From the NCBI RefSeq assembly GCF_000373105.1, contig NZ_KB890422.1, forward strand, positions 1 through 64,000: a stretch of 64,000 bases of DNA, given 5' to 3'. Source of the DNA: Neolewinella persica DSM 23188. Its GTDB lineage: Bacteria > Bacteroidota > Bacteroidia > Chitinophagales > Saprospiraceae. A program made the translations under genes and the position numbers. The notes below the pieces were generated by a model. It had not been told where the DNA came from and did no database searches. It was given only the letters and a program-made list of their open reading frames with translations. The first letter of the stretch is position 1; every line of letters begins with the position of its first letter. Shown here piece after piece: positions 221 to 60,318 of this stretch.

Positions 221-239
221 TGCACCTGCGGCCCCGCCC
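221..239 (+). repeat. Dispersed 18-mer copy, intergenic
   Basis: TGCACCTGCGGCCCCGCCC, a close copy of the dispersed consensus GCACCTGCGGCCGCGCCC. It lies upstream of the DUF2911 gene. Confidence 0.8.
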
Positions 240-309
240 GAATACTAACCAGGCGGTTTATAACCGACAAATGTAGTATTTTCGCGACCTCAATAACCAA
301 AACCATACC

Positions 310-1407
310 ATGAGAATCAAATTCACCCTGCTTTGCTGCCTTTTCCTGATGGGAGGCCTTACCCTCGTTCAGGCGCAGGAAGTCAAATTTGGCGACCTGG
401 ACAAGAGCCCAATGGATGCTGCTCACTACCCACGCAGTGCTGCCTTTGCCAACTACCTTTCCGCAGATGATCCTGAACGGAACCAGAAGATCAAGGTGCT
501 CTACAGCCGTCCCCTGAAAAAAGAACGCAACATCTTCGGTCAGCTGGAGCCCTTCGGTCGGGACTGGCGCATGGGGGCAAACGAAGCCACAGAAGTTACC
601 TTTTATCAGGCAGTTGAAATCGGAACAACTCAAATACCCGCCGGAACTTACACCATGTTCGCGCAGCTTTATGCCGACCAGTGGATCGTGAAAATCTCAG
701 AAGAACGCTTTATCGGCGGTTCTGAGAACCGTGACGTTGCTAAAGATCTGGTAGCAATCGCAGTGCCTACTATGGTGACTTCCAAAGCTCGTGAATCATT
801 CGTTATCGGTTTCCAGAAGATCGACGAAGGCATGGTGCACATGATTTTCGAATGGGACAAAACCCGTGCGGCACTGCCCATCAACCTGAACCCACCCAGC
901 CTGGCCGGAGACGATGCCAGCCCGATGGACCTGATTCAGTATCCGGACATGAGTCGCTTACGGAACTACGTAGAGGAAAAAGACCTGGCCGCTAACGAGC
1001 CTCAGGTTCGTGTTGTTTACAGCCGTCCGCAAATGAAAGGCCGTAAGATCTTTGGCGAAATGCTCAAGTACGGCGAAATGTGGCGCGTTGGTGCCAACGA
1101 AACTACCGAGTTAACGTTCTTCAAAGACGTTACCATCAACGGAAAAGACGTCAAGGCTGGCCGCTACGGCCTGTTCGCTAAGGTCAATGACGGCAGCTGG
1201 GAATTCATCATTCACAAAGCCGTACAGAGCTGGGGTAATGCCAACTTTGATGAGAAGGATGTCGTAGTAAAAATGACGGCTAAGACCGAAAAGACGCCAG
1301 CGACGCTTGAAGCACTTTCCATGACCTTCGTCGGGAAAGGCGACATGGTCGAACTGGTAGTTGGTTGGGAGAATACTATGGCGCGTTTACCTATTAAAGT
1401 TAAATAG
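310..1407 (+). CDS. Exported protein with two DUF2911 domains
   Basis: Product of 365 aa with a signal peptide (residues 1-22, cleavage after VQA). The mature part is two tandem DUF2911 domains: about residues 55-195, opening KVLYSRPLKKERNIFG, and about 225-365, opening RVVYSRPQMKGRKIFG. Each has the family's W-R-M/V-GANE-TE core and a conserved AG-Y-(T/G)-(M/L)FA strand. DUF2911 is a Bacteroidota-rich exported family of unknown function. A tandem two-domain form suggests internal duplication. The ATG at 310 directly precedes the signal peptide. A strong hairpin terminator follows at 1469-1500, so the gene is probably monocistronic. No enzymatic function can be assigned. Confidence 0.9.
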   Translation: MRIKFTLLCCLFLMGGLTLVQAQEVKFGDLDKSPMDAAHYPRSAAFANYLSADDPERNQKIKVLYSRPLKKERNIFGQLEPFGRDWRMGANEATEVTFYQAVEIGTTQIPAGTYTMFAQLYADQWIVKISEERFIGGSENRDVAKDLVAIAVPTMVTSKARESFVIGFQKIDEGMVHMIFEWDKTRAALPINLNPPSLAGDDASPMDLIQYPDMSRLRNYVEEKDLAANEPQVRVVYSRPQMKGRKIFGEMLKYGEMWRVGANETTELTFFKDVTINGKDVKAGRYGLFAKVNDGSWEFIIHKAVQSWGNANFDEKDVVVKMTAKTEKTPATLEALSMTFVGKGDMVELVVGWENTMARLPIKVK

Positions 1408-1468
1408 TCAAATAGTCCGAGGCAGCTTGCTGCGCTCGTAGGGCTTCGGCCTGGATGGACTAAAACAG

Positions 1469-1500
1469 CGAAGCCCCGGATGTCTTCATCCGGGGCTTCG
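1469..1500 (+). terminator. Rho-independent terminator after the DUF2911 gene
   Basis: Perfect 14-bp stem (CGAAGCCCCGGATG / CATCCGGGGCTTCG) with a 4-nt loop TCTT, followed by TTTGTTTT. Confidence 0.85.
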
Positions 1501-1550
1501 TTTGTTTTAGAATGGCTCGCTGGAAGGTTCCAGAGGGTTTCGATTTCATG

Positions 1551-1665
1551 CTGGTCGGTTGGGGACAAGCCCCGCCCGACCAGCGTCGGGTTTGGAGGCC
1601 ACGTTCGCAAAGCGAACGCGGGATGAATGAATGATTCTAGTAGGGGCGATCCCTTGCGGTTGCCC
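1551..1665. repeat. Composite palindromic intergenic element
   Basis: A fold-back segment at 1551-1583 (CTGGTCGG ... CCGACCAG) is followed by CGTTCGC-AAA-GCGAACG at 1602-1618 and by TAGGGGC/TTGCCCC-type arms up to about 1665. The same three-part composite, in inverted order, occurs at 34429-34550, and a degenerate form at 5883-5999. The convergent gap at 1408-1725 holds only this element and the terminator. Confidence 0.7.
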
Positions 1666-1725
1666 CACTGGTCCTGTCATTTTGGCTTCGCTGCTCCTCT
1701 TGGGCGGCCATATAATGCAAGTGGC

Positions 1726-2985
1726 TTACCGCATCAAAGTAAGGCCAACGGCGGTTCTGGGCTTGAAGCCTTCCCACTTATTGGTATTGGCGTCTTCGGG
1801 CAATTCGAGGTACTTCGCATTGTCCTGGTCTTTTAGCTTGCTGCCGAGGAAGGCGGTAATGAAATGCTGGTTGATGTTATTCATACGACGGGTATCCCAA
1901 ACAGAATCGCCATACCGGAGGTACTCATCAATGTGAAGGCCGGGTGCGAGGGCTTCGGGAGGCGGAGGGTTCGGAGCTACGTTGTGCCGTGCCCCTTCGT
2001 AGGTGAGCAGGTAGCGCTCCGTGTTGGTTGCGCCATCGAAGATGGCTTTTATACCGTCCTCGTATCCGGAAATATCGTCTTCGCTACCGGCAATGAAGAA
2101 GGTGGGGACTGATAGGTTTTTGAGGCCTTCGTCATCCCACACGCGGGCTTTTTTGCCCCATGGAGCAAAGGCGACGACGGCTTTGACGCGCGGATCAGCT
2201 CCGGGGTAAGCTTCGTTGCCGATCAGGTGGCGGTTGATGGCGGTACTGCCGCCGGTCCGGCCAGAGACGAAACCGCCAAAGCCCGGGCTGTAGCCGGCAC
2301 CACCTACGTTGAGGACACCGTAACCACCCATGGAATAGCCGATGATGGCGGTATTATTGGCGTCGGTAAGTCCGGAGAGGAAGGACCCCGAGCCAGACTT
2401 ACTCATGCGCCCCATCTCATCAATAGCGAAACGAATGTCTATCGGGCGGAAGTAGAGCGTAGAAGTAAACGGCCCCGCATTGTCGAAGGTCGATTCGGTA
2501 TGTGCGATGGAGACGACTACGTAACCTTTGGAGGCCAGGTTCTCGGTGAGGTAGGTCATCAGGAACCGGGAGCCGGTGTAGCCGTGGGAGACGACGACCA
2601 GCGGGTAGGGGGCCTTACCTGCCTTTGGTTTGGCATCACGGGTCGCGCGGCCGAGGAAGGTGAAAGGAATAAGCGGCCGGGTGGTATCCGGGAATTGCCC
2701 CATGGTTTCATTGTAGCTGAGGGTTGCAGCGGCATCGGCCTCTGCGGGGTACCAGACCTCGATTTTCAGCGGTCGGTCGTAAGTAGGGATTTCGCCTTCC
2801 TTAAAGGCGGCAATGTTGAGCTGGTCGGGGTTGGTGATGGTTAGGCTGCGGACGCCTACGGCATGTTCACCACGTTCAGACAGTGCGGGCGCATCGGGCA
2901 ATACGTCACCATAGACGAATTGGGCGCGGAGCGCAGGATGCAGGCAAAGGAACAAGAAGAGCAGGGGGAGGAAACGTTTTTGCAT
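1726..2985 (-). CDS. Secreted alpha/beta hydrolase (PAF-acetylhydrolase / dienelactone hydrolase-like)
   Basis: Product of 419 aa with a signal peptide at residues 1-21 (ends ALRA). An alpha/beta-hydrolase core follows: the oxyanion region HGYTGS at about 134-139 and the nucleophile elbow GYSMGG at about 216-221 (Ser218). A likely acid sits in AGSEDD near 303 and a likely catalytic His in ARHN near 330. The layout matches secreted platelet-activating-factor acetylhydrolase, cutinase-like or dienelactone-hydrolase-like esterases. The substrate cannot be told from sequence. It converges on the upstream DUF2911 gene and diverges from the K+ channel gene. The call at superfamily level is secure; the subfamily is a guess. 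Confidence 0.85.
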   Translation of the reverse strand: MQKRFLPLLFLFLCLHPALRAQFVYGDVLPDAPALSERGEHAVGVRSLTITNPDQLNIAAFKEGEIPTYDRPLKIEVWYPAEADAAATLSYNETMGQFPDTTRPLIPFTFLGRATRDAKPKAGKAPYPLVVVSHGYTGSRFLMTYLTENLASKGYVVVSIAHTESTFDNAGPFTSTLYFRPIDIRFAIDEMGRMSKSGSGSFLSGLTDANNTAIIGYSMGGYGVLNVGGAGYSPGFGGFVSGRTGGSTAINRHLIGNEAYPGADPRVKAVVAFAPWGKKARVWDDEGLKNLSVPTFFIAGSEDDISGYEDGIKAIFDGATNTERYLLTYEGARHNVAPNPPPPEALAPGLHIDEYLRYGDSVWDTRRMNNINQHFITAFLGSKLKDQDNAKYLELPEDANTNKWEGFKPRTAVGLTLMR

Positions 2986-3100
2986 TGATCGGGGGGTTGG
3001 TTAAGCAAAATCAGAGCCTGACAACAGGCCGGCTCTAAGAAACGGAATATTCTTGGGGAAATGAGCGGTGTGTGTGTTTTATTAGTTGGTATTTTGCCAC

Positions 3101-4864: not shown

Positions 4865-4888
4865 TAGGCTCCGGAGGAGACAGATTTC

Positions 4889-5032: not shown

Positions 5033-5080
5033 AAAATTCGATCCCTTCGGGATCATTAGAACTATTTGATTCAAACGAAA

Positions 5081-5112: not shown

Positions 5113-5138
5113 CATTATGTGAAAGCAGGGTTTAAGCC

Positions 5139-6036: not shown

Positions 6037-7662
6037 CTACTCTTGCAGCCGGTAAATCCCCACCGTCAGGTGTCCTCCGGGGGCAATCTCCACGACCGGA
6101 CGGGCGAAGTGCTCTTCTCTGTCACGGACCATGTAGCGGGTATTGGCCCAGATGAAATTAGTGGCCAGGTAATCGGCCTTGTGCCAGGCACCTTCCAGGC
6201 GTAATTTGGCTTTGGCTTCCGGTGGAAGGGCGTAGAAATTATCGTTGCAGGGCCATACTTCGCACTTGATCGAGCGAACTTCCCCTTCCGGGATTTGATC
6301 AGCCAGCTCCAGAAAAGCTTCCCGGAAACCGACGCCCCAGTAGTCCATGTCGAACCGGGTCATGAGGGGCTTGCCCTGGATGGCAATGTTGAAGTAAACG
6401 TACTGATGCGGATGGTAAATAACCATCGTTAGCGCAGTAAGGGTTAGCCCTGCTCCTAAAATCAGTCCTGGCACCTGCGGCCGCGCCCAAAGTCGGGTTT
6501 TCAGATTATCAGGTTTTCGGGTTGCCCACTTTTGCTGCGCCCACTCAAATCCGACCATCAACAGAAATATTAAGCCGGGATAAACAAAATGTAGATGTCG
6601 CCAGCCGTTGTAGAGCGTGGAGCCGAGGAGAATGACTACCAAAATGGGGCCGGTGGAAAGGCCGAGTTGCGCAAAATCCAACAGTTCCTGGTCGTTGCGC
6701 CAGAAGCGGAATTCCTTTAGGCTGCCAATTATATTTTTCCCCGTGGCGTAGATGCCGGAGAACATAAAGATCAGGTACAGGATGGGGGTGGTAATGATGA
6801 TCCAGGCCGGAATGTAGTAGGCCGGGACGTCGAGTGCGCTGATGCGATCCCCGAAAAGCCATACGTAGCTGTCCCAGTCAAAGGCAGACATTTCAGAAAA
6901 GGCACTAATAAGGCGACTGAACGTATCTTCCCAGAGGTAGGGAAAAAAGGGGACCATAAATGCGATGGAGAGTGGGAGGTAGGCCGCGATCCAGGCGATA
7001 TTTTTACCGTTGCCTTTGCGTTCGCGCAGGAATTCCCAGCCGAGGAGGAGTACGGTAGTGAGTGGAACGATCAGTGCGGGTAACCGGGTATTGAGTGCCA
7101 GCCCGGTGGCAAAGGCATGAAATAGGAGGTTACGCCAGGTCCGGTTTTTCAGGAACCGCAGCAGCGTGAAAATGCTGATGAGATAGAAGACCAGCAGGAC
7201 GTGGTCTTTGGGGTTGTAAAAGCCGTTGGCGAAAATGCGGGGGCTAAGTACAAGGGCCAATGTGCCGAGCAGCGGATACCAATCCTGATCGGGAAACCTT
7301 AGCCGAAGGGTTCGATAAAAGTAGATGCAGGCCAGCCAGAATAGTCCGAAATTCATCCAGTGGCGAAGTTTGTAATATTGGTAAGGGGCGTCTTCATAGC
7401 CTAGGGCCAGCTCAAGTCCGGAGGCGGTGATCTGGTAGATCATGCCGTAGTTGGACCACTGATAATCCTCCAGGTCCCATTTAGGTTCGAGGGCAACGTG
7501 GTCGGTCATCCCCAGTTTTTCCGCTGCATAATCAATAGAAACGCGGCCGTGCCGCCGCTGAATGGACTCGTCCCAGCTGATGCCGTAGTCGTCGAGAATC
7601 CATCCCCCGAGTAACAGAAGGCCGAAGAAAAAAACAACGGGGTACCAGGGCGAGAAAGTCAG
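6037..7662 (-). CDS. GT39/ArnT-like membrane glycosyltransferase, probable non-AUG start
   Basis: The first ATG is at 7509 (490 aa), but the frame stays open another 54 codons up to a stop at 7674. That extension encodes a clear membrane helix (PVVFFFGLLLLGGWIL) followed by DDYGISWDES. This is the first-loop acidic signature expected of dolichyl-phosphate-sugar type (GT39/PMT, ArnT-like) transferases. I therefore extend the gene to a CTG at 7660-7662; an ATC at 7666-7668 is the alternative. Roughly ten further TM helices follow, with the loop SPRIFANGFYNPKDH typical of the family. A copy of the dispersed 18-mer is read in frame as ARPQV near residue 325 of the ATG-started form. It probably transfers a lipid-linked sugar at the periplasmic face; the acceptor is unknown. 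Confidence 0.8.
   Translation of the reverse strand: MTFSPWYPVVFFFGLLLLGGWILDDYGISWDESIQRRHGRVSIDYAAEKLGMTDHVALEPKWDLEDYQWSNYGMIYQITASGLELALGYEDAPYQYYKLRHWMNFGLFWLACIYFYRTLRLRFPDQDWYPLLGTLALVLSPRIFANGFYNPKDHVLLVFYLISIFTLLRFLKNRTWRNLLFHAFATGLALNTRLPALIVPLTTVLLLGWEFLRERKGNGKNIAWIAAYLPLSIAFMVPFFPYLWEDTFSRLISAFSEMSAFDWDSYVWLFGDRISALDVPAYYIPAWIIITTPILYLIFMFSGIYATGKNIIGSLKEFRFWRNDQELLDFAQLGLSTGPILVVILLGSTLYNGWRHLHFVYPGLIFLLMVGFEWAQQKWATRKPDNLKTRLWARPQVPGLILGAGLTLTALTMVIYHPHQYVYFNIAIQGKPLMTRFDMDYWGVGFREAFLELADQIPEGEVRSIKCEVWPCNDNFYALPPEAKAKLRLEGAWHKADYLATNFIWANTRYMVRDREEHFARPVVEIAPGGHLTVGIYRLQE
6471..6488 (+). repeat. Dispersed 18-mer copy inside the GT39-like gene
   Basis: Exact consensus GCACCTGCGGCCGCGCCC, antisense to the gene, so read as A-R-P-Q-V in a loop between membrane helices. 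Confidence 0.9.
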
Positions 7663-10239: not shown

Positions 10240-10806
10240 TATTGTGGGACAGCTACGCTGTCATCTGTTATGCATATCAACTAACTGAAAATGAATTCTT
10301 ACCATTCCACTACTTATCAGATTGTCTTTGGTACAAAATATCGGAGGAAAGTAATGACTCGTAAAAACCGACTAAAGCTGTTCAAATTCATTTACGGTAT
10401 CTGTAAAAATTATGAATGCCACGTTTATCGCATTAATGGCGTATCGGATCACATTCATATAGTGCTTAGTATCCCTCCTAAAGTTGCTATCTCAGCTCTA
10501 ATCAAAGAGATAAAGAGCTCTTCATCTGGATTCATAAGAAAAGAACGCCTCTTTAAGAACTGGATGGGATGGCAAAAAGGATACTTCTTGGGTTCGTATG
10601 CTGCTGAAGCAAGAGACAATCTGGTGGCTTACGTCAAAAAACAGGAAACACACCACGGTGAAATGAATGAACTAGAAAAAGAATCCTATCATGACGAACT
10701 GGTAAGGTTATTAGGAGAACATCATATCCCCTGGGACGAGGTCTACCTGGAATAGCAGATGACGGTACATACAACGGGAGCACGACGGCGTAGCCGTCCC
10801 ACAATA
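10240..10806. mobile_element. IS200/RAYT-like element (core)
   Basis: The Y1 transposase gene is bracketed by imperfect inverted sequences. On the left, TATTGTGGGACAGCTACGCT begins at 10240 and leads into GTCATCTG. On the right, CAGATGAC (10756-10763) and GGCGTAGCCGTCCCACAATA end at 10806. Each side folds into a small hairpin (ACAGCTACGCTGT; ACGGCGTAGCCGT), as expected for single-strand Y1 transposases. A larger hairpin CCCCGGAC ... GTCCGGGG follows at 10811-10853. Confidence 0.7.
10291..10755 (+). CDS. Y1 (HUH) transposase, IS200/REP-associated family
   Basis: Product of 154 aa. The HUH metal-binding motif is H-I-H in GVSDHIHIVLS at about 50-58. The catalytic tyrosine is in LVAYVKKQETHH at about 113-118. 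The start MNSYHSTTYQIVFGTKYRR is typical of IS200/IS605 TnpA and of RAYT domesticated relatives. It is full length for the family and looks intact. It nicks and rejoins single-stranded DNA at hairpin ends. It has no partner TnpB. The long downstream hairpins and adjacent 25-bp array make RAYT-like behaviour plausible, but that is inference. Confidence 0.9.
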   Translation: MNSYHSTTYQIVFGTKYRRKVMTRKNRLKLFKFIYGICKNYECHVYRINGVSDHIHIVLSIPPKVAISALIKEIKSSSSGFIRKERLFKNWMGWQKGYFLGSYAAEARDNLVAYVKKQETHHGEMNELEKESYHDELVRLLGEHHIPWDEVYLE

Positions 10807-10984: not shown

Positions 10985-11731
10985 CTATTTACCTCCCACA
11001 GAGGAGCTCAGGTATTCCCGGTTCAACCGGGCAATGTGCTCAACCGAAATCTCCTTAGGGCATTCCGCCTCACACGCAGTAATGTTCGAGCAACGGCCGA
11101 AGCCCTCAGCATCGTGCTGTTCGACCATGCGCCGCGCACGCTGTGCGGCTTCAACCTCACCCTGCGGCATGTGGGCCAAGTGGCTCACTTTAGCAGCGGT
11201 AAACAGCATAGCGGAGGCATTCGGACAAGCGGCGACGCAGGCGCCACAGCCAATACAGGTGGCAGCGTCCATCGCTTCGTTGGCCACTTCCTTCTCGATC
11301 GGGATGGCGTTGCCATCCTGGGCCTGGCCAGTATTTACGGAGATGAATCCGCCAGACTGAATAATGCGGTCAAAGGCGTCGCGGTTAACGACGAGGTCTT
11401 TAACGACGGGGAAGGCAGCTGAACGCCATGGCTCGATGGTGATGGTGTCACCGTCGTTGAAATGACGCATGTGCAACTGGCAAGTCGTGGTACCCTGCAT
11501 CGGCCCGTGTGGGTAACCATTGATGACGAGGCTACAAGTACCACAGATACCTTCACGGCAATCGTGCTCAAAAGCAACGGGCTCTTGCTTATCGGATACG
11601 AGTTTTTCATTCAGCACATCCAGCATTTCCAAAAAGGACATGTGGGTGGATACATTATCGACTTGGTAAGTCTGGAACTGGCCTTTGGCCTTATTTCCTT
11701 TTTGCCGCCAGATTTTTAGGGTGAGTTTCAT
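10985..11731 (-). CDS. sdhB: Succinate dehydrogenase / fumarate reductase iron-sulfur subunit
   Basis: Product of 248 aa from the ATG at 11731 ([11 protein letters not shown]). A second ATG five codons upstream fits the family less well. The N-terminal plant-type ferredoxin domain has [2Fe-2S] ligands in [12 protein letters not shown] and TTTCQLHM. The C-terminal domain has [12 protein letters not shown] ([4Fe-4S]) and [12 protein letters not shown] ([3Fe-4S] plus shared Cys). It passes electrons from the SdhA flavin to the haem/quinone site of SdhC in the inner membrane. Last gene of sdhCAB; a dispersed 18-mer sits in the 127-bp gap between sdhA and sdhB. Confidence 0.95.
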
Positions 11732-11790: not shown

Positions 11791-11808
11791 TGCACCTGCG
11801 GCCGCGCC
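11791..11808 (+). repeat. Dispersed 18-mer copy between sdhA and sdhB
   Basis: TGCACCTGCGGCCGCGCC with the common flanks CTTCCCT before and AAAAAAA after. It lies inside an operon, so it is unlikely to be a full terminator. Confidence 0.85.
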
Positions 11809-11858
11809 AAAAAAAGTGCGTGCTGGTGAAGGATTGGCCGGAACCGAACCGGCGACTA

Positions 11859-14760: not shown

Positions 14761-14851
14761 GGCGGGGCCGCAGGATGCAATTGGATGTTTTTTGAGCAAA
14801 GGGTGCTGAGATTGCCCTTCACCTCTTCCTTGCACCTGCGCACCGTCGCCC
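14761..14851. repeat. Inverted pair of degenerate dispersed 18-mers
   Basis: GCGGGGCCGCAGGATGCA (14762-14779, one inserted base) faces TGCACCTGCGCACCGTCGCCC (14831-14851), separated by 51 bp. The remainder of the 14577-15123 gap shows no gene. Confidence 0.6.
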
Positions 14852-21831: not shown

Positions 21832-22052
21832 GGGCGCGGTCGCAGGTGCAAGGGAAGGGTAAAAAGAGCAAACGGACCTCGAAGCGTCGCGCAGCGACCT
21901 TTGAGTGTCCGGTGCAGCGACCCTTGAGCGTCCGTTGCTGCGGGGTGGTCTTAGGCCAGATGTACTTCCGTAGAAGTACGGGGAAGGATTTTGAACAGGC
22001 GTAGAACACTCAGCATTGCCTCAAACTTACCTATGCACCCGCGTCCCCGCCC
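21832..22052. repeat. Inverted pair of dispersed 18-mers
   Basis: GGGCGCGGTCGCAGGTGCA (21832-21850) faces TGCACCCGCGTCCCCGCCC (22034-22052). Between them are GACC/GGTC hairpin words (21870-21930) and the 18-bp sequence GTACTTCCGTAGAAGTAC (21962-21979). The gap at 21661-22112 holds no gene. Confidence 0.75.
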
Positions 22053-26306: not shown

Positions 26307-27191
26307 CTACACAAAAGAACCGCTAACCACCAATTCTTTGCCTCCTCCTGAGTAATCGTAAAAGCCTTCGCCCGATTTACGTCCCAGTTTGCCGGCCATG
26401 ACCATATTAACAAGTAGCGGACAGGGCTGAAAATGGGCACGACCAAAACCGTCTTTCATCACTTCCAGAATGGCCAGGCAGGTGTCCAGGCCAATATAAT
26501 CTGCCAGCTGCAACGGCCCCATTGGGTGGGCCATGCCGAGCTTCATTACGGTATCGATTTCTGCTACACCTGCCACGCCTTCAAATAAGGTAGTGATGGC
26601 CTCGTTGATCATCGGCATCAGAATCCGGTTGGCCACAAAGCCTGGGTAATCGTTCACTTCTACGGGCACTTTGCCTAGTTCCCGACTGAGGTTCATCACC
26701 AGTTCCGTCGTTTCGTCGCTAGTGGCGTAGCCACGAATCACCTCCACCAGTTTCATTACCGGAACTGGATTCATGAAGTGCATCCCGATCACCTTGTCCG
26801 GGCGATCCGTTGCTGCGGCGATGCGGGTGATGCTGATGCTTGACGTATTTGTAGCAAGAGGCGCGGCCGCAGGTGCAAGGGAAGCTAATTGAGCAAAGAT
26901 CTTAAGCTTCAGGTCAACGTTTTCCGTCGCTGCTTCTATAACCAGGTCTGCCTCCTGCGTCCCCGCCCCCATATCGGTAAAGCCGGTAATATTTGCTAAC
27001 GCGGCTGCTTTTTCTGCTTCCGTGATGCGTTCTTTCTTAACGATCCGGTCAAGACTGTTGCCAATGGTGGCAATGCCCCGGTCCAGAGCGGTCTGGTTTA
27101 TGTCTACAAGGCTGACCTGATGGCCTCCGGTGGCGAAAACCTGGGCAATGCCCGCACCCATTTGGCCGGCGCCGATTACTGAAATATTCAT
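26307..27191 (-). CDS. 3-hydroxybutyryl-CoA / 3-hydroxyacyl-CoA dehydrogenase
   Basis: Product of 294 aa, typical of the short stand-alone enzyme. NAD site GAGQMGAGIAQ at about 7-17, ATNTSSISI at about 113-121, catalytic His138 in GMHFMNPVPVMKLVE, and the C-terminal domain with PGFVANRILMPMINEA and GMAHPMGPLQLADYIGLD. It oxidises (S)-3-hydroxyacyl-CoA in beta-oxidation or butanoate metabolism. A perfect copy of the dispersed 18-mer is read in frame as A-P-A-A-A-P (106-111), in the variable loop just before ATNTSS. The enzyme still looks intact. A -7-like TACTTTCG lies at 27227-27234. Confidence 0.94.
   Translation of the reverse strand: MNISVIGAGQMGAGIAQVFATGGHQVSLVDINQTALDRGIATIGNSLDRIVKKERITEAEKAAALANITGFTDMGAGTQEADLVIEAATENVDLKLKIFAQLASLAPAAAPLATNTSSISITRIAAATDRPDKVIGMHFMNPVPVMKLVEVIRGYATSDETTELVMNLSRELGKVPVEVNDYPGFVANRILMPMINEAITTLFEGVAGVAEIDTVMKLGMAHPMGPLQLADYIGLDTCLAILEVMKDGFGRAHFQPCPLLVNMVMAGKLGRKSGEGFYDYSGGGKELVVSGSFV
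26860..26877 (-). repeat. Dispersed 18-mer copy inside the hydroxyacyl-CoA dehydrogenase gene
   Basis: On the coding strand TGCACCTGCGGCCGCGCC, translated A-P-A-A-A-P, with the usual CTTCCCT-type 5' flank. Same orientation as the gene. Confidence 0.9.
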
Positions 27192-31017: not shown

Positions 31018-31141
31018 GGGCGCGGTCGCAGGTTGCAGGAATCGGAACGAGTAAGAGCAGGGGTGGGGTAGCGGCCCGATTTTATACGGTCGTCAGCTGT
31101 TTTTGCGCTTTTAAACCATTTTTTGCACCAGCGGCCGCGCC
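31018..31141. repeat. Inverted pair of dispersed 18-mers
   Basis: GGGCGCGGTCGCAGGTTGCA (31018-31037, one inserted T) faces TGCACCAGCGGCCGCGCC (31124-31141), separated by 86 bp. Together with the promoter of the downstream gene this explains the 30933-31287 gap. Confidence 0.8.
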
Positions 31142-31257
31142 ATGGAAACAGTTGGCCAAGCGCCCAAACAGCCCAAAAACCATAAAGCTTAATGTGAGAT
31201 AGTGTACAAGTAACAGTAAGTTAACATCAGACTGGGATGCAGTTAACCGTGTCGGGT

Positions 31258-34786: not shown

Positions 34787-34805
34787 TGCACCGGCGTTCG
34801 CGCCC
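34787..34805 (+). repeat. Degenerate dispersed 18-mer
   Basis: TGCACCGGCGTTCGCGCCC, with mismatches at the centre relative to the consensus. Confidence 0.45.
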
Positions 34806-38005: not shown

Positions 38006-38042
38006 TTTTTTTGTGGTTGATCTTTATTGAAGGGGCTTTTTT

Positions 38043-38060
38043 GCGGGATCGCGGGTGCCA
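38043..38060 (-). repeat. Degenerate dispersed 18-mer
   Basis: GCGGGATCGCGGGTGCCA, resembling GGCGCGATCGCAGGTGCA at 46431 with a few mismatches. Confidence 0.35.
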
Positions 38061-40612: not shown

Positions 40613-40634
40613 GTTAGTACTTGCTTCATATTTT

Positions 40635-40652
40635 GGCGCGGCCGCAGGTGAA
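40635..40652 (-). repeat. Dispersed 18-mer copy, intergenic
   Basis: GGCGCGGCCGCAGGTGAA, one mismatch at the end of the core. Confidence 0.8.
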
Positions 40653-46382: not shown

Positions 46383-46430
46383 TGACTTTTTAAGAGTGGA
46401 AGAGAGGAGAAACTTGTTGCTTTTGATGCA

Positions 46431-46448
46431 GGCGCGATCGCAGGTGCA
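46431..46448 (-). repeat. Dispersed 18-mer copy, intergenic
   Basis: GGCGCGATCGCAGGTGCA; the variable centre here is ATC. Confidence 0.85.
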
Positions 46449-52583: not shown

Positions 52584-53039
52584 TATAGTGAATATTGGTT
52601 AGAAAAATGAGTGTGCGTTAGATACTTGTAGAGTATCTATTAAAAAAACCTCAAACGACAAATGTTGATCCAACTGCCGAATGATGGCGTAGCAAGAAAC
52701 TGGTAGATTTCTTGCTGGAATAATCTTGAGAATTGAAGACAGAATTTTTAGGTGGGCGTTTAGATAGGCTGAAAAGGCAAATAGCCAGTTATATAGACGA
52801 AACGTCTTTTGCCAACAGTTCGCTGCTTTTCGGTCGCAATTTAGGCAATAAATCATTGCCTGTGAAACATGGTACTTGACAAGCTTTGCTTCTCGTAAAC
52901 AAACTTGCACCTGCGGCCCCGCCCAGCTATCCTAAATGGGGACCCTGGTTCAGAAATAGGTTTGGAAAACGTACAACCGCGATTACCAGCAGCCTACGTA
53001 ACGCAGAAGGGCTTCGACTTTTCTGTGTTCAAGTCAGCA
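52584..53039. other. Gap upstream of susC
   Basis: Contains a small hairpin AGATACT-TGTAG-AGTATCT (52619-52637) in the presumed susC leader and a dispersed 18-mer at 52906-52924. No convincing gene. Confidence 0.5.
52906..52924 (+). repeat. Dispersed 18-mer copy, intergenic
   Basis: TGCACCTGCGGCCCCGCCC; same variant as at 221-239. Confidence 0.85.
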
Positions 53040-53672: not shown

Positions 53673-53676
53673 GTTT

Positions 53677-53940: not shown

Positions 53941-55353
53941 ATGACCTTCGCCTACGATCTCTTCCGCTGTGTACTCGGCCTTGCCGTAATGATTGGTGTA
54001 TGCTATGCTTTTAGCCGTAACCGTAAAGCCATCGATTGGCGCCTGGTTGGTATTGGCCTGACGATGCAGTTCATTCTAGCCATACTTATTCTTAAAGTGA
54101 AAGGCGTTTCGATTATTTTCGATTATATCGCTACCGGTTTTCGTAAAACGCTTGAGTTTACTGCCGCGGGTTCAGAGTTCCTATTCGGCAGCATCGTCAA
54201 CGATATGGATAGTTTCGGCTATATATTTGCCTTCCAGGTGTTACCGACAGTCGTTTTCTTCTCCGCCTTAACTGCGGTCCTCTACTATCTCGGCATACTC
54301 CAAAAGGTGGTCTACGGACTTGCTTGGTTACTGAGTAAAGCCATGGGGCTCAGTGGTCCGGAAAGTTTAGCGGTTGCTGCTAATGTCTTCATTGGCCAAA
54401 CGGAAGCTCCGCTAGTGGTGAAGCCTTACCTCGAAAAAATGACGCGCTCCGAATTGCTTAGCGTGATGGTTGGCGGGATGGCCACCATTGCCGGCAGCGT
54501 ATTTGTGGCCTATGTCGGTTTCCTGGGAGGGAGTGATCCTGAAATGCAACAGTTTTTTGCCAAGCACCTGCTTACGGCAAGTATGATATCGGCTCCTGCA
54601 GCCATCGTTTGTGCTAAAATGCTGCTTCCGGAAACCAGCGAGGAACTTGCTGCCGTTACCGGGGCAGACTCCGAGGATCCGCATACGGCACATACACCCC
54701 AAAAAGACAAGCGCCTGGAAATGGCAGCTGATGACAGCAACAACCTCCTTGATGCCATTAGCCGTGGAACGACCGATGGGCTGAAGCTGGCCGTCAACGT
54801 AGGTGCAATGCTGCTCGTGTTTACGGCGCTGATCTTCATGCTTAATGAAATCTTTTTGGGGGTAACCGACATTGTCAACTGGTTGGCCATGGGGGCCAAC
54901 AGCGAGGTATGGGATAGTGCCGAGGCTATGGGTAATACCTGGAATCAAACGATCGCGGCTGCTACTGGCGGCCGTTTCGAAGGCTTTAGTTTTACCTATT
55001 TACTTGCTTTGTGTTTCGCGCCCGTTGCCTGGATCATCGGTGTGCCCGGCCAGGACATTACCGTTGTAGGGCAATTGCTGGGCCTCAAAACGGTGATCAA
55101 TGAATTTGTGGCCTATGATACCTTTCGGGTTGTTCAGGAAAGTGGTGGCAGACTGAGCCCCAAAGCAACGCTCATTGCGGCCTACGCACTGTGTGGCTTT
55201 GCTAACTTCGCGAGTATCGGCATTCAGGTTGGCGGCATCAGCGCCATCGCGCCGGGGCAGCGCAAGAACCTGACGGACCTGGGCATGATTGCTTTATTGG
55301 GTGGCACCATTGCCTGTTTGATGACGGGGGCGATTGCCGGACTGTTTTATTAG
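53941..55353 (+). CDS. nupC: Concentrative nucleoside transporter (NupC/CNT family)
   Basis: Product of 470 aa with 9-10 hydrophobic helices. CNT motifs: GPESLAVAANVFIGQTEAPL VVKPYL (first hairpin/TM4) and FVAYDTFRVVQESGGRLSPK ATLIAAYALCGFANFASIGI (second hairpin). A hydrophilic insert at about 238-270 (EDPHTAHTPQKDKRLEM) is seen in Bacteroidota homologues. It imports nucleosides with H+ or Na+. Divergent from udk. A dispersed 18-mer starts on the last base of its stop codon. Confidence 0.93.
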   Translation: MTFAYDLFRCVLGLAVMIGVCYAFSRNRKAIDWRLVGIGLTMQFILAILILKVKGVSIIFDYIATGFRKTLEFTAAGSEFLFGSIVNDMDSFGYIFAFQVLPTVVFFSALTAVLYYLGILQKVVYGLAWLLSKAMGLSGPESLAVAANVFIGQTEAPLVVKPYLEKMTRSELLSVMVGGMATIAGSVFVAYVGFLGGSDPEMQQFFAKHLLTASMISAPAAIVCAKMLLPETSEELAAVTGADSEDPHTAHTPQKDKRLEMAADDSNNLLDAISRGTTDGLKLAVNVGAMLLVFTALIFMLNEIFLGVTDIVNWLAMGANSEVWDSAEAMGNTWNQTIAAATGGRFEGFSFTYLLALCFAPVAWIIGVPGQDITVVGQLLGLKTVINEFVAYDTFRVVQESGGRLSPKATLIAAYALCGFANFASIGIQVGGISAIAPGQRKNLTDLGMIALLGGTIACLMTGAIAGLFY

Positions 55354-55371
55354 GGCGGGGACGCAGGTGCA
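55353..55371 (-). repeat. Dispersed 18-mer copy touching the nupC stop codon
   Basis: GGGCGGGGACGCAGGTGCA; its first base is the last base of the TAG. A GGACGT/ACGTCC hairpin and the 18-bp GTACTTCTACGGAAGTAC (55416-55433) follow, as they do in inverse order at 21832-21979. Confidence 0.85.
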
Positions 55372-55459: not shown

Positions 55460-56377
55460 TCAGTCTGACTTCCGCCAGCAAAGTATCCGCCGAAGTTTCC
55501 CTCCCTGACCGATGCGGATGGTTTTAGTGGTCGTAATCCCCAGTCGTCCGAACTCGATCTCCGCAATCCTGAGGTACCCCTTCTTAGACACCAGGGTGGT
55601 AAACCAACCTACCTGGTTCGCATAATCAACGGATTCCCGAATCATTTGTCGGAGGAAGGCAGGTTCCCCGCCGGCTGTCCACAACTCATTGGACTGGCCT
55701 CCGAAATTAAGGGTAGGGGAGGGGCCGGTTGTTTTACCCAACTTCTCCCACTTCAACCGGGCGGCCGCCCCGGCGGCTTCAGCAGATTCAAAAAATGGCG
55801 GATTGCACATCGTAAAGTCAAACCATTCTCCCTGCCTTATTACGTTGTGAAAAATTCTTGCAGTATCCGGTTGGCGGCGCAAAGCTACTTTCTTTACCAG
55901 CGCGGGGTTGAACCTCGCAATGGCCCCCGCTACTTTCATTGATCGTGTTGAAACGTCGGTAGCAACGAAGTTCCACGCATATTCTTTTATTCCAAGGATG
56001 GGGTATATGAGCGAGGCACCGGTGCCGATGTCAAGACCGGTAATTTTCGTTTGTCCCTTCCCGCTTTGCTCCTTCGTCTCTTTTCCATGCACCTGCGTCC
56101 GCGCCTGATCGCCTTCCAATAGTTCGGCCAGGGCATGGATGTAATCCAACCGGCCCGGAACCCCCGGGCAAAGGTTGCCCTCGGGGATGTCCCAGAACTT
56201 CAGGTCATAATCTTGCAGTAACAAAGCCTGGTTGAGGAGCCGAACCGCCATTGGAGCGGCGAAGTTGAGGCTGGTACGGCCATCCGGCGTTGTGACCAGG
56301 TAATCCGCAAGACCGGGTACCACTTTCGTAAGGGCAGGAAAATTGTGCGGCTTTGCGTAGCGATTTCTGGGATGCAT
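55460..56377 (-). CDS. rlmF: 23S rRNA adenine(1618)-N6-methyltransferase
   Basis: Product of 305 aa. HPRNRY start, GLDIGTGASLIYPILG (SAM loop, near 114-129), catalytic-type NPPF in MCNPPFFESAEAA, and GGQSNELWTAGGEPAFLRQM are the RlmF signature. It methylates A1618 of 23S rRNA (E. coli numbering). Between LAELLEG and GLDIGTG sits an extra Lys/Gln-rich stretch of about 25 residues (89-113) that includes the dispersed 18-mer read as A-R-T-Q-V-H (92-97). The catalytic parts are intact. Confidence 0.93.
   Translation of the reverse strand: MHPRNRYAKPHNFPALTKVVPGLADYLVTTPDGRTSLNFAAPMAVRLLNQALLLQDYDLKFWDIPEGNLCPGVPGRLDYIHALAELLEGDQARTQVHGKETKEQSGKGQTKITGLDIGTGASLIYPILGIKEYAWNFVATDVSTRSMKVAGAIARFNPALVKKVALRRQPDTARIFHNVIRQGEWFDFTMCNPPFFESAEAAGAAARLKWEKLGKTTGPSPTLNFGGQSNELWTAGGEPAFLRQMIRESVDYANQVGWFTTLVSKKGYLRIAEIEFGRLGITTTKTIRIGQGGKLRRILCWRKSD
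56088..56105 (+). repeat. Dispersed 18-mer copy inside rlmF
   Basis: TGCACCTGCGTCCGCGCC, antisense to the gene; within the extra linker before the SAM-binding motif. Confidence 0.9.
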
Positions 56378-56492
56378 GAGCGAATTATGGAATTAGCAAA
56401 TTAGGGACGGGGCTAATCGGGCGGGCGAGTTTTCCGGCTGATGCTTTCTATAACTTCAAGTTTGGCGAAGGGGCTTTGTTTTAAGGGTTGTT

Positions 56493-56566
56493 GTAAATAT
56501 GTAGAAGTACGACAAGGGCTTTATACAAGGTGCGTATAAACTGCCGTAAATATGTAGAAGTACAAC
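56493..56566. repeat. Direct 21-bp repeat pair
   Basis: GTAAATATGTAGAAGTAC plus GAC or AAC at 56493-56513 and 56546-56566, 53 bp apart, with TATACAAGG/CGTATAAA between. The rest of the 56378-56680 gap has only the terminator. Confidence 0.7.
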
Positions 56567-56620
56567 ACCGGCAATCCCTTACAAACTAAAACGATATCAT
56601 AAAAACAAGCATACCCAAAA

Positions 56621-56657
56621 AAGAACGCCACGCAAATAGGCTTCGCGTGGCGCTCTT
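56621..56657 (-). terminator. Terminator of the TlpA-like gene
   Basis: AAGAACGCCACGC / GCGTGGCGCTCTT (one mismatch). The minus strand continues with six T. Confidence 0.8.
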
Positions 56658-56680
56658 TAGCTAAAATGCGGTGACTTAGT

Positions 56681-57796: not shown

Positions 57797-58083
57797 GACT
57801 TACAATTTTTCGATTAAGGCACAAGAACGGCCTTTTGTTGATCTTTAACGGTAAAGATAAGGCATTTCGTTTAAATACGACACTTGTAGTTTTAAAAAAT
57901 TATCTCAGATTTTTGCCTGCTTGAACTGTAACTAACCGTAAAGGCCGGTAATTATCGTGGCTTTCATGAAAAACGCGGAGTCTTTTTTAATAGCCCTCAC
58001 CCGTCGGGAGGTGTGGTAGGGAGCGTACGAGTAGTCCTCTTCAAGTTGCCGTACCTTGCAGCCTAATTAATTCCCCCGGTATT

Positions 58084-58803
58084 TTGCACCTACTTATTGT
58101 CGAAGATGAAGCCAGTATGGCCCGTCGCCTCCAACGGTTGTTGGAGGAAATATTAGGGGACCGAATCACCTCTTTGGTTAGGGTACCTGGTGTTGCAGCC
58201 GCATTAGACCATCTCAGTAAGAAAACCATTGACTTGATGTTTTTGGATCTCAACCTAAACGGTAAGGATGGTTTTACCGTACTGCAATCGCTTCTTGCCG
58301 GGTCTTTTGACGTCATTGTCGTCTCTGCTTATCGAGATCGGGCGCTGGAAGCATTTGACTACGGCGTACTCGATTTTGTCGCCAAACCCTTCAGCGGGCA
58401 ACGCCTGGGACAGGCGGTGGACCGTTACCTGAATCATCAGGGACATCCCGACCGGCCTTTGAGCAAGCTCGCCATAAAAAAACAGGGGAAGCTAACCTTG
58501 ATTGACGTCAGCGACATACTCTTTGTGCAGGGAGCGGATATCTACACCACCCTGCACCTGCGCCCGCGCCCAAAAAATGTAAATATTCATCCAACGGAAC
58601 TGTCGGATAAGTCACTGGAAAGCCTGTCCCGTTTACTCCCTCCAGATTTTATTCGGGTACACAAGTCATTTATCGCCAACATCAACGCCTGCCAGGAATT
58701 GCGCATTGAGGGAGGTGGGCGATATGCGTTGTTGCTGAAAGATGGGCGGAAAATTCCGGTCGGACGTACCCGGTACCAGGAGGTTCGGGATCGGTTTTTA
58801 TAA
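58084..58803 (+). CDS. LytTR-family response regulator carrying a dispersed-repeat insert
   Basis: Product of 239 aa. TTG start at 58084, chosen because the receiver's first strand (LLIVEDEA) begins at once; the next ATG would remove the acidic pocket. Receiver 1-115: Asp55 in MFLDLNLNGKDG, Lys in DFVAKPFSG. LytTR domain about 130-239 (ILFVQGADIYTTLH, FIRVHKSFIANIN, KIPVGRTRYQEV). The dispersed 18-mer is read in frame as L-H-L-R-P-R-P (157-163), in the loop after LytTR strand 2, so the DNA-binding fold should tolerate it. The likely kinase is the LytS-type protein at 60441, with an S33 hydrolase gene between them. Confidence 0.9.
   Translation: MHLLIVEDEASMARRLQRLLEEILGDRITSLVRVPGVAAALDHLSKKTIDLMFLDLNLNGKDGFTVLQSLLAGSFDVIVVSAYRDRALEAFDYGVLDFVAKPFSGQRLGQAVDRYLNHQGHPDRPLSKLAIKKQGKLTLIDVSDILFVQGADIYTTLHLRPRPKNVNIHPTELSDKSLESLSRLLPPDFIRVHKSFIANINACQELRIEGGGRYALLLKDGRKIPVGRTRYQEVRDRFL
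58553..58571 (+). repeat. Dispersed 18-mer copy inside a LytTR regulator gene
   Basis: TGCACCTGCGCCCGCGCCC, sense orientation, translated L-H-L-R-P-R-P, followed by the common AAAAAA flank. Confidence 0.9.
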
Positions 58804-58851
58804 AACCCATCCCGAACCTGCTTTGGTAGAGTAGAACCACTTTTCCAGCAT

Positions 58852-60318
58852 CTACTCAGGCAGTACCCATTCAACCGGAGGCAAAACGATGCGCTCGTCC
58901 TTGATGTCTTTTCCTTCGAAAAAGTCACGCATTACTTCCAGAATCCGTGGCGAAGACAAGAACAGCGGATCACTGTGTCCTGCCCCTTCGATGACCAGAT
59001 GGTGCCCATTTTTGAGGTGCTTCAGGGTTTCAACAGCATTCTCTGCTGACGTTCGTCCGTCCAGTGTCCCGCTGATGCAGAGCACAGGTAGTTTGGTGGG
59101 GTAGGGAGCACGGAAGGCCTTTCCAGCATCCAGTTCGGTCAGCTCATCGTACTGATCCAGGTAAGGGAAGTTGATGGCAGCTCCCAACAGAGTAGTTTTG
59201 GCCTGCTTTTCAACGAGTTTTCTGCGGGCCGGAGAAATGCCCGAGGCTATGTCCATAGCCATTGACATGCCGTTAAATTGACCCATTTTTACGTAAAATG
59301 CATAGGGCGTCACAATAGAAAAATCACCACGCAACATGGATTGTACCATAAAGGGCAGGTCACTAAAATTTTCTGGCCCGGCCAGCGACCAACTCACCAG
59401 CTGCTGCATGTCATGCTTGCCGATAGCTACCAGCATCGTGTCTCCGGTAACCGGATGTTTAGCTGGGATCATAGCGGGTGCCTTGTCGAGTTTTTTTAGT
59501 AGCCGGTCAATGTCTCCGAGAAAGTCAGGATAAACGGCTGCAGTTGCTGGATTGGCCTTGATGCGCCTATCGATGTCTTCGAGTAATTGCTGTTGATGAA
59601 TGGGTAGTTTCACCGTATGATCGTATCCTTCGATGCCGGCGATCACTATCCGGTCCAGGTGTTTTTCATGCCGCTTTATGGCCGTGAGGGAGAGGTGGGA
59701 CCCGTAACTAATCCCCCAAAGACTGATCTTTTCAGCACCGAGGGCCAACCGTAAATCATTCAGATCATCAGCACTTTCGTTGGTGTTGTAGCCACTGAGG
59801 TCACAATCATTGTCGGCGAAAAAATCAGCAGCCTCGCGGGTGGCCTTCTGTATGATCTGGCGGATTTCCTTTTGGGTCATCACCTTAGCAGGGTCAACGG
59901 ACCAAAAACCAGGGTAGCGAGGCGGTCCATCGGAGAGGCCGGTTCCCCGCTGGTCGTAGGCAATTACGTCGGCAACGGCGCGCAACGCTTGAAAGAGGTC
60001 ATGTCGAGTGCCTCTGGCCGTACCAATGCCGGAGCCGCCAGGCCCGCCCGCCAGGTAAACAATCGGGGAACCTGGATTAGGGTTGGTGCTTTTGAACCTG
60101 ACGAAACGTAGAGTGAGCTTTTTCCCGGAGGCTTTAGTTCGGTTTTCGGGTACGGAAAAGGAGCCCATTTCTGCCTCCGTTTTTCGTCCGTCCTGAGTAA
60201 TGAATTCGTAGGGCTCCAGGGTAAGTTTCGGTGCTTGCTGGCTCATCAGGGCGGGGCCGCAGGTGCAGGTTAGGGTTAGTAGGCAAAGTAGCGGTAAGCG
60301 TAAGAACATGGTTTTCAT
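58852..60318 (-). CDS. Alpha/beta hydrolase, S33/TAP-like peptidase
   Basis: Product of 488 aa from the ATG at 60318; a longer frame to 60498 runs into the opposite promoter and is rejected. Signal or lipoprotein-like N-terminus LRLPLLCLLTLTCTCGP; its Cys18 and Cys20 are encoded by a dispersed 18-mer. Oxyanion motif LAGGPGGSG near 90, DQRGTGLSDG, nucleophile WGISYGSHLS (Ser near 204), and a C-terminal TAP-like part with CISGTLDGRTSAENA and the catalytic His in IEGAGHSDPLF. It probably cleaves N-terminal residues, or small esters/amides, outside the cytoplasm. Confidence 0.88.
   Translation of the reverse strand: MKTMFLRLPLLCLLTLTCTCGPALMSQQAPKLTLEPYEFITQDGRKTEAEMGSFSVPENRTKASGKKLTLRFVRFKSTNPNPGSPIVYLAGGPGGSGIGTARGTRHDLFQALRAVADVIAYDQRGTGLSDGPPRYPGFWSVDPAKVMTQKEIRQIIQKATREAADFFADNDCDLSGYNTNESADDLNDLRLALGAEKISLWGISYGSHLSLTAIKRHEKHLDRIVIAGIEGYDHTVKLPIHQQQLLEDIDRRIKANPATAAVYPDFLGDIDRLLKKLDKAPAMIPAKHPVTGDTMLVAIGKHDMQQLVSWSLAGPENFSDLPFMVQSMLRGDFSIVTPYAFYVKMGQFNGMSMAMDIASGISPARRKLVEKQAKTTLLGAAINFPYLDQYDELTELDAGKAFRAPYPTKLPVLCISGTLDGRTSAENAVETLKHLKNGHHLVIEGAGHSDPLFLSSPRILEVMRDFFEGKDIKDERIVLPPVEWVLPE
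60249..60267 (-). repeat. Dispersed 18-mer copy in the S33 hydrolase signal-peptide region
   Basis: The coding strand reads TGCACCTGCGGCCCCGCCC, translated C-T-C-G-P-A around residues 18-23. Confidence 0.9.

Follow-up and report, generated by a model that had tools for sequence, protein, structure and literature searches.

What explains the recurrence of a GC-rich word of 18 bp along the window, i.e., the whole stretch of 64,000 nucleotides of Neolewinella persica DSM 23188 that was analysed? The motif is genuine and far above chance: 16 matches with at most 3 mismatches of 18 were found (nine on the plus strand and seven on the minus strand) against a mean of 0.04 expected, and none of 100 shuffles reached 16. 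All 15 close copies reported in the initial annotation, as well as the degenerate one at 34787, were recovered no more than 1 bp from the positions given there. Two other degenerate copies (14762 and 38043) lie on the minus strand and differ from the motif at 3 of 17 positions, while the one placed at 14831 does exist on the plus strand, but at 14834 and in a different spacing class, ACCTGCGC-ACCGT-CGCC, which is 2 bp longer. Matches at 11228 and 24205 (3 mismatches, inside genes) were left out of the copy count. The copies are as follows:

222..239, plus strand: motif copy GCACCTGCGGCCCCGCCC, 1 mismatch of 18, intergenic
6471..6488, plus strand: exact motif copy, antisense within a PMT_2-domain gene (6037-7509, minus strand)
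11792..11809, plus strand: motif copy, intergenic
14761..14777, minus strand: intergenic weak copy with 3 mismatches of 17, in the opposite orientation to the copy at 14834
14834..14850, plus strand: copy with the plus-2 spacing, ACCTGCGCACCGTCGCC, the form prevailing in G001 and G006
21832..21849, minus strand: intergenic motif copy, forming an inverted pair with 22035
22035..22052, plus strand: intergenic motif copy with 3 mismatches of 18, forming an inverted pair with 21832
26859..26876, minus strand: motif copy, in frame in the 3-hydroxyacyl-CoA dehydrogenase gene (26307-27191, minus strand), encoding LAPAAAP
26951..26967, plus strand: weak copy, 2 mismatches of 17, antisense in the same dehydrogenase gene
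31018..31035, minus strand: motif copy between divergent genes, with 3 mismatches of 18, forming an inverted pair with 31125
31125..31142, plus strand: motif copy, divergent intergenic, inverted pair with 31018
34788..34805, plus strand: intergenic motif copy with 3 mismatches of 18
38042..38058, minus strand: weak copy, 3 mismatches of 17, intergenic
40634..40651, minus strand: motif copy, divergent intergenic
46430..46447, minus strand: motif copy between convergent genes, with 3 mismatches of 18
52907..52924, plus strand: motif copy, intergenic
55353..55370, minus strand: motif copy, convergent intergenic
56089..56106, plus strand: motif copy, intergenic according to a home-made gene finder; a 305-aa ORF (55460-56377, minus strand) covers the site
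58554..58571, plus strand: motif copy, within a weakly scoring ORF
60249..60266, minus strand: motif copy; the gene finder set the start of the alpha/beta-hydrolase gene (58852-60498, minus strand) downstream and classed the copy as intergenic; in our reading, in the frame of that gene it encodes the signal-peptide-like stretch LTCTCGPALMSQ

The site is bipartite, with the layout 5'-(pyrimidine-rich, ~20 bp)-TGCACCTGCG-[4 or 6 bp]-CGCCC-(A-rich)-3', and with its flanks amounts to about 24-34 bits of information. Base frequencies were taken from 136 of 160 sites, the 24 with 3 mismatches being left out. The part TGCACCTGCG, initially described as invariant, is less strict than that: its T (the sixth base of GCACCTGCG) is kept in 82% of the 136 sites. 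The base following GCG is free, and the one preceding CGCC is G in 67% and C in 27%. The flanks were described correctly at the outset: the 5' side is pyrimidine-rich over ~20 bp, and bases 2-6 past CGCC are A-rich.

Genome-wide (G000, 7.08 Mb), 1659 copies were counted against a single one for the reversed control, so the word exceeds what composition predicts, and it is present outside the window both across the genome and in genomes of the same genus. As many as 17 of the 20 other genomes of the genus hold 244-1316 copies (e.g., 1119 in G018 and 511 GC-type copies in G017); G001 holds 7, and genomes of other genera hold 0-6 copies each (n = 39). Motif discovery recovered the motif in six genomes, at a density of one site per 2.6-5.2 kb. 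The early guess of a Lewinella-like distribution agrees with the loci listed, 57 of 80 of which are Neolewinella, Lewinella or Saprospiraceae/Bacteroidia records (among them N. aurantiaca, agarilytica, marina, lacunae, aquimaris, and antarctica), while the remaining 23 are single matches in other bacteria.

The motif is likely (probability roughly 0.7) to be a DNA uptake sequence, i.e., a genus-wide signal of self-DNA read in natural transformation. Properties of this class that were found are over-representation, absence of strand polarity, origin by substitution, dialects that follow the phylogeny, and regular spacing; the abundance, the limit to the genus, the dialects, the even spacing and the substitution origin favour the uptake-like signal among the candidates first proposed. 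A further trait of uptake-sequence users, the type IV pilus assembly ATPase (PF00437), was not convincingly found in the genus. The ATPase is a trait of the known users' machinery, and not of the sequence class.

Several dispersed words are available for comparison. HIP1 of cyanobacteria is dense, GC-rich, of unknown role, and occurs in coding sequence; it is an 8-bp perfect palindrome, unlike the long, asymmetric and lineage-variable motif described here. The bipartite core of 16-20 bp, with two spacer lengths and pyrimidine-rich and A-rich flanks, also sets the motif apart from the DUS of Neisseriaceae, of which longer forms exist, as does the lack of a convincing type IV pilus ATPase in Neolewinella-group genomes. 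The reader of the DUS is the type IV minor pilin ComP. According to the part of Frye et al. 2013 (PMC3630211) that concerns dialects, the DUS resembles the motif in being a dispersed over-represented word with intergenic enrichment and with dialects along the phylogeny that share a short common part. As far as the passages on known systems in PMC7811141 go, Neisseriaceae and Pasteurellaceae have documented uptake sequences and take up DNA with type IV pili, and the DUS is a 10-bp word. The USS of Pasteurellaceae (Haemophilus influenzae) likewise combines a core with AT-rich flanking segments, and its 1465 core copies given in the same passages (PMC7811141) are similar in number to the 1659 found here, whereas it occurs about once per kb against once per 2.6-5.2 kb, and the sequences are unrelated. 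No uptake sequence described for Bacteroidota was found in the literature searched. In Riemerella columbina, a member of the Bacteroidota, own DNA outcompetes heterologous DNA in transformation, and the k-mer search in the relevant part of that report (PMC7965970) gave A/T-rich words only, with nothing comparable to the present motif.

The sites are enriched about threefold in intergenic regions (2.97, 2.81 and 2.98 in G000, G019 and G010, respectively), with 46/136, 51/101 and 27/54 of them in coding sequence. In divergent gaps they point to the nearer gene in 25/34, 14/21 and 5/6 cases, a polarity due in part to inverted pairs; sense and antisense sites in tandem gaps number 18/25, 13/10 and 12/9. 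A transcription or translation signal (promoter, operator, terminator or 5' leader element) might produce the intergenic enrichment and the nearer-gene bias, and the word of G010 includes TACTTTG, which resembles the Bacteroidota -7 promoter box, TAnnTTTG. Such a signal is nevertheless very unlikely, as the distances to start codons are broad, the orientations in tandem gaps are mixed, many sites fall in coding sequence, and 1659 copies are too numerous for an operator. The G010 word was considered as a promoter in its own right and rejected, there being no fixed distance to starts.

Spacing was assessed in 464, 400 and 220 kb of G000, G019 and G010. Its coefficients of variation are 0.58, 0.60 and 0.60 against 0.88, 0.89 and 0.83 in simulations, of which 0, 0 and 16 of 2000 were as even as observed. 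A longest gap as short as that of G010 is not unusual (474/2000 simulations). In G000, no gap exceeds 12 kb in 464 kb, and the five gaps above 8.5 kb contain, by eye, no obvious mobile island. The even spacing, the genome-wide spread, the occurrence on both strands, the substitution origin and the codon conservation would be equally expected of a binding site for a chromosome-organising, segregation or recombination protein present once every few kb, and the two spacers suggest a dimeric or two-domain binder. This is the main rival to the uptake sequence, but an improbable one. That the wording changes inside a single genus would be surprising for an essential site of which more than 1000 copies all need to function. 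The nucleoid or recombination site proposed initially fits the spacing, spread and conservation, but explains the lineage-specific wording less well. The lack of strand polarity also speaks against it. Chi and KOPS are strand-polar signals, and the original argument against them holds for the genome as a whole, where the motif, evenly oriented as first reported, splits 830/829 by strand. A plus-strand excess in G019, considered as a polar signal, was an effect of the listing: the strands split 50/48 in 400 kb of one contig (contigs are draft).

At orthologous places, sites appear and vanish by substitution, not by insertion. Across 549 comparisons, which derive from 67 of 369 sites and are dominated by three query genes (duplicate loci, i.e., the same place in the same genome, were left out), the net length difference was 0 in 496 and near the motif's own length in two (-18 and -15). 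Outside the three query genes, 28 sites gave 84 comparisons, of which the motif was kept in 45 and 60 were gap-free. Of 11 orthologues of the gene holding the copy at 26859..26876, nine show a recognisable copy at those codons, while G010 and G015 lack it. In genomes selected for carrying the motif, its codons showed higher conservation than the remaining fourfold columns of hisS (p 0.009), mtaB (p 0.00015), and hbd (0 of 20000).

The substitution origin speaks against mobile repeats, including REP-like elements mobilised by a RAYT (Y1 transposase), which were among the early candidates. The likeness lies in short, dispersed, many-copied units and in RAYT-type genes in most genomes of the genus: Y1_Tnp matches occur in 20/21 of them, one being in the window at 10291-10755. 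In addition, 20 close inverted (-,+) pairs are present in G000 against 3.7 expected. REP elements, however, are extragenic and palindromic, whereas at least a third of the sites lie in coding sequence (46/136 in G000), the recurring stem is only the 3-bp GCG/CGC, and eight window sites folded as DNA gave z from -1.57 to +1.54, with no notable hairpin. Orthologous empty sites show substitutions instead of insertions; no Y1_Tnp (PF01797) match was found in G018 (a draft, 95% complete) with its 1119 copies, while G001 has four such matches and only 7 motif copies. The REP/RAYT explanation is thus mostly refuted. The 20 pairs were also considered as a MITE or insertion element with inverted ends; this was rejected because their interiors share only 13-24 bp near the ends and no precise empty sites were seen.

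The three same-genus exceptions (G001, G006, and G010) bear other words in a similar layout. The words of G001 (TACCTGCGCTCCGCCGCC, 25 copies in 140 kb) and G006 (ACCYGCGCNCCGGCGCC, 18 copies in 120 kb) have the plus-2 spacing, with a control of 0 in both. G010 carries 1024 copies of TGCTACTTTGNYAGYC (497/527 by strand), or RCAYTGCTACTTTGNYAGYC+AAAA with its flank, while the 59 other genomes have 0-7 each, which is at the level of the reversed control (0-11); it is labelled a dialect from its layout, density and spacing, with no clear sequence homology. The preferred form also differs between G019 (GCACCCGCG, 72/102 sites) and G000 (GCACCTGCG, 118/149 sites). In a two-protein tree of 20/21 genus genomes, with G010 chosen by us as the root, G001 and G006 are sisters (support 0.998) nested in GC-type genomes, and G013 and G019 are sisters (1.0); the dialects fit this phylogeny. 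In G000, a minority of sites have the plus-2 form (7 in 464 kb, control 0), which makes for a plausible intermediate in the spacing change. G017 is mixed: a 100-kb sample has six plus-2 sites and three of the GC form, despite the 511 GC-type copies genome-wide.

Motif discovery seeded with the top word recovered no motif in G017 and G008, and in G006 it required a seed from the sister's motif; some rows low in the logos of G006 and G001 look like chance. The best z of the word test was 32.7 in G000, 25.7 in G010, and 11.2 in G001. In other genera it reached 10.9 in G021 (229 kb, several contigs of which were picked for holding the motif or other search matches), 7.9 in G022 (140 kb), and 6.8 in G026 (70 kb), none near G000 or G010. 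As the best word of G001 is no stronger than that of G021, and the G006 motif falls outside that genome's own top 14 words, weak dialects in the outgroup genera may have gone undetected.

A wording that differs between lineages is what specificity drift typically produces, and might point to a site recognised by a defence system such as restriction-modification or phage exclusion. Recognition sites of this kind are usually short and not enriched, whereas the motif carries ~24-34 bits with its flanks, is codon-conserved, and is evenly spaced; a defence site is accordingly hardly to be expected.

If the motif is an uptake sequence, a putative surface or periplasmic DNA-binding receptor would favour site-bearing fragments, which would recombine into the chromosome via ComEC and the usual recombination proteins. 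Such biased import could spread new sites wherever sequence constraint permits (molecular drive, perhaps with selection for kin exchange). As receptor specificity drifts, the entire site set would follow, giving rise to the dialects GCACCTGCG, GCACCCGCG, the plus-2 spacing, and perhaps TGCTACTTTG. The receptor would be other than the pilus-based kind. The evidence leans slightly towards this being the first uptake-sequence system beyond Neisseriaceae and Pasteurellaceae, namely a self-DNA code of Bacteroidota that spans a genus and forms dialects, with a putative non-type-IV-pilin receptor and a bipartite site, the spacer length and wording of which changed genome-wide at least twice in one genus. 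If so, natural transformation would have acquired self-recognition on more than one occasion and with different machinery, and the spacing change in G001 and G006 and the word of G010 would be natural steps of a specificity switch. The system would then allow a direct test of receptor specificity co-evolving with a thousand or more sites (drive versus selection), and the species' own word on donor DNA would offer a practical handle for transforming Neolewinella.

No paper linking Lewinella with natural transformation was found. ComEC is present in 21/21 genus genomes, although the G000 protein scores under the full ComEC/Rec2 cut-off; it also occurs in 20/24 genomes of other genera and is thus no proof of competence. 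The type IV pilus ATPase PF00437, the sole pilus family searched, gave no convincing match in the genus: matches are weak and partial (no more than ~25 bits, covering about 80 of 370 positions, best E 1.3e-5), a few lying just above the cut-off of 24.9 bits, while full-length matches occur in G046 (1.4e-126) and G041 (8e-123). The pilus machinery of known uptake-sequence users is therefore probably missing from the genus, and the reader protein would be new and of another kind. DUF5689, which occurs in one Riemerella transformation protein, has no match in 20/21 genus genomes. An operon of G023 was dropped as a Riemerella counterpart because it carries a PLD nuclease-fold domain. A Riemerella-type outer-membrane pair was likewise rejected as the reader: the DUF5689 gene of G010 adjoins TonB receptor, MbnP and CCP_MauG genes, and this locus perhaps serves metal uptake.

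The dispersed GC-rich 18-mer is present in 16 copies in the window at ≤3 mismatches, as compared to 0.04 expected from shuffled sequence. Throughout the genome of Neolewinella persica (G000; a draft assembly of 7.08 Mb in 84 contigs, contig 10 of which begins with the window), GCACCTGCGNCCSCGCC occurs 830 times on the forward and 829 times on the reverse strand at ≤1 mismatch, and the reversed pattern, serving as control, occurs once. A consensus was derived from 136 sites in 464 kb with ≤2 mismatches, leaving aside another 24 that had 3. Its core, GCACCTGCG-N-CC-S-CGCC, has a T before it in 88% of sites and a pyrimidine-rich stretch of approximately 20 bp on the 5' side, in which the positions near -4, -8/-9, and -15 to -18 stand out; on the 3' side lies a short A-rich stretch. 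As the flanks fade to background at about -25 and +23 (counted from the first G), the motif unit spans approximately 45 bp. AT-rich flanks contribute to uptake in the uptake signal sequences (USS) of Pasteurellaceae, according to part of PMC7811141.

The survey covered 60 genomes, 21 of them from the genus (G000 and 20 congeners) and 39 from other genera of the same order. The motif is found in 244–1316 copies in 17 of the 20 congeners, the remaining three being motif-poor (53 copies in G006, 8 in G010, and 7 in G001), and in 0–6 copies in each genome from other genera. Among the matches listed in a scan of named genomes, 57 of 80 loci belong to Neolewinella, Lewinella or Saprospiraceae/Bacteroidia records, and the other 23 to bacteria outside these groups. 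Four exact copies also lie on a 38.7-kb contig from a viral collection (IMG/VR 3300012037_000001; pieces L181 and L183), which may represent a phage, a plasmid or misbinned host DNA.

Word counting turned up replacement words in all three motif-poor genomes. The G001 word, TACCTGCGCTCCGCCGCC-aaaa, and its close relative in G006 both have a distance between ACC and CGCC that is 2 bp longer than in the GC form of the motif; in fixed-pattern counts this longer form reaches 17.9 (G001) and 15.0 (G006) per 100 kb, with controls at 0. In G000 it accounts for a minority of sites: 464 kb contain 7 copies (control 0), one of which is the window copy at 14834. Fixed patterns in 100 kb of G017 matched it 6 times versus 3 for the GC form. 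Hence the site is made up of two parts, between which either of two spacer lengths is permitted. The G010 word, RCAYTGCTACTTTGNYAGYC-AAAA, was found at 66 places in 180 kb and in 1024 copies genome-wide (497 and 527 on the two strands); the 59 other genomes contain 0–7 copies each, the reversed control giving 0–11 there. It resembles the GC form in density and spacing as well as in layout, with a core followed by an A-tract, and we infer a relation by descent between them. Finer preferences are also visible among genomes of the GC type: G019 favours GCACCCGCG (72 of 102 sites) and G000 favours GCACCTGCG (118 of 149), and the base before CGCC is C in G011 (23/29) and G017 (12/14) and G in G019 (94/102).

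A two-protein tree of 20 genomes was built after the motif columns had been taken out; G009, which is 55% complete, yielded no orthologue. Rooted by choice on G010, its longest branch, it places G001 and G006 as sisters (support 0.998) nested among GC-type genomes, and G013 with G019 (1.0); support is low at some inner nodes close to G000 (0.19, 0.69). In Neisseriaceae, dialects of the DNA uptake sequence (DUS) are described in part of PMC3630211 as following the core-genome tree.

Gene calls from a home-made finder place 90 of 136 G000 sites between genes in a sample that is 78% coding, an enrichment of 2.97 (2.81 in G019 and 2.98 in G010). Coding copies adopt frames that yield mild peptides (APAAAP, GAxAGA) or signal-peptide-like starts (e.g., LLCTCGPAQ). 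Several sense in-frame copies near gene starts in the G000 sample read as CTCxxAQ-like ends of what look like signal peptides, and the motif thus seems to have been absorbed into these. Tandem intergenic gaps of G000 hold 18 sense and 25 antisense sites, at widely varying distances from start and stop codons; within divergent gaps, 25 of 34 sites are oriented to the nearer gene.

After merging of sites <400 bp apart, spacing is more even than random in G000, G019, and G010: the coefficients of variation are 0.58, 0.60, and 0.60 versus 0.88, 0.89, and 0.83 in simulations, and such evenness was reached in 0, 0, and 16 of 2000 simulations per genome. The longest gap is shorter than simulations would predict in G000 (6/2000) and G019 (0/2000), and not in G010 (474/2000). 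Close inverted (-,+) pairs number 20 in G000 (3.7 expected) and 5 in G019 (2.4 expected); G010 has 5 pairs in the opposite order (+,-), with 1.1 expected. A pair acting as one element was considered and rejected: the interiors of the 20 G000 pairs are alike only in short stretches near the ends, so each pair consists of two neighbouring sites. Part of PMC2397512 reports that DUS spacing matches conversion fragments and that DUS sit in permissive core regions.

Three genes, namely hisS and mtaB (NCBIfam names) and the 3-hydroxyacyl-CoA dehydrogenase gene of the window, carry the site at identical codons in much of the genus, and orthologues without it have other codons, often other residues, and mostly no gap (e.g., LAPAAAPLATNTS where the site is present versus AAPADCILATNTS in G010). 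Orthologous comparisons were available for 67 of 369 distinct sites; among all 549, many of them stemming from these three query genes, the motif is kept in 357, missing without a gap in 126, and accompanied by a gap in the compared window in 66. Net length is unchanged (difference 0) in 496, and the difference comes close to motif length in two (-18 and -15). Outside the three genes, 28 sites gave 84 comparisons (45 with the motif kept, 60 gap-free). In the three genes, codons within the motif show higher conservation than the remaining fourfold columns (p = 0.009, 0.00015, and 0 of 20000) among 7, 11, and 9 genomes picked because they carry the motif. Concerning DUS, part of PMC2397512 argues that many arose via recombination rather than point mutation.

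Abundance, absence of strand polarity, lineage-restricted words, permissive placement, even spacing, origin by substitution, and dialects together constitute the signature of DUS and USS; on this combination the motif is probably a DNA uptake sequence (a probability of roughly 0.7). The main rival explanation is a binding site that organises the chromosome. Among the papers listed in searches of the open-licence PubMed Central literature, none describes an uptake sequence for Bacteroidota or this genus; in part of PMC7965970, the Bacteroidota member R. columbina is reported to prefer its own DNA, the words listed there being only A/T-rich.

One mobile-element gene of the window was compared with the motif positions:

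10291-10755, + strand, IS200-like Y1 transposase (RAYT-type; PF01797, E = 2.2e-27)

It is not motif-flanked, as the nearest listed copy (11792) is approximately 1 kb away. Other words are over-represented in the G000 sample (L031-L050), namely TGCAACCCCT/AGGGGTTGCA, GATTCTCGATT, and AGCGAAGCGA; they fall outside the top 14 once copies <400 bp apart are merged and therefore look like clustered repeats. Repeated words were likewise seen in G006 (TTAGTCTTTT; L236-L241), G001 (GGAGCTCCAG; L222-L228), and G019 (GATAGCTATC and CTACCGCCTA; L326-L345). The outgroup genus member G021 (L353-L358, L382-L387) has two mildly over-represented spread words, CAACCCCAA (14 versus 1.3) and AGGTCTTCG (12 versus 1.3), which could be due to chance or coding bias, or could form a weak dispersed motif.

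Regarding candidate uptake machinery, ComEC (PF03772) is present in 21/21 genomes of the genus and 20/24 others; the G000 protein scores above the cut-off of the ComEC N-terminal model and below that of the full ComEC/Rec2 model. The pilus ATPase family PF00437, the sole pilus family searched, gave weak short matches in the genus, a few just above the cut-off. According to part of PMC8459023, a transformation protein of Riemerella carries the domain DUF5689, which has no match in 20 of the 21 genus genomes. The exception, G010, encodes a triple-DUF5689 protein clustered with MbnP, CCP_MauG, and a TonB receptor (L379:2194-10601), perhaps involved in metal acquisition. The receptor of an operon in G023, from another genus, has near-full-length matches in at least 8 of 50 genomes (≥47% identity, G023 included), other matches being fragmentary, and nothing comparable in the 21 genus genomes among the matches listed. 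This operon (L399:4276-10725; domains checked by Pfam) encodes a lamin-tail-domain protein with a T9SS signal, the TonB-dependent receptor, and a DUF5689 and phospholipase-D-fold protein with a T9SS signal. Related genes occur on L400 (G042) and, in a different order, on L401 (G047); the operon could represent a scavenging system for extracellular DNA or lipid.
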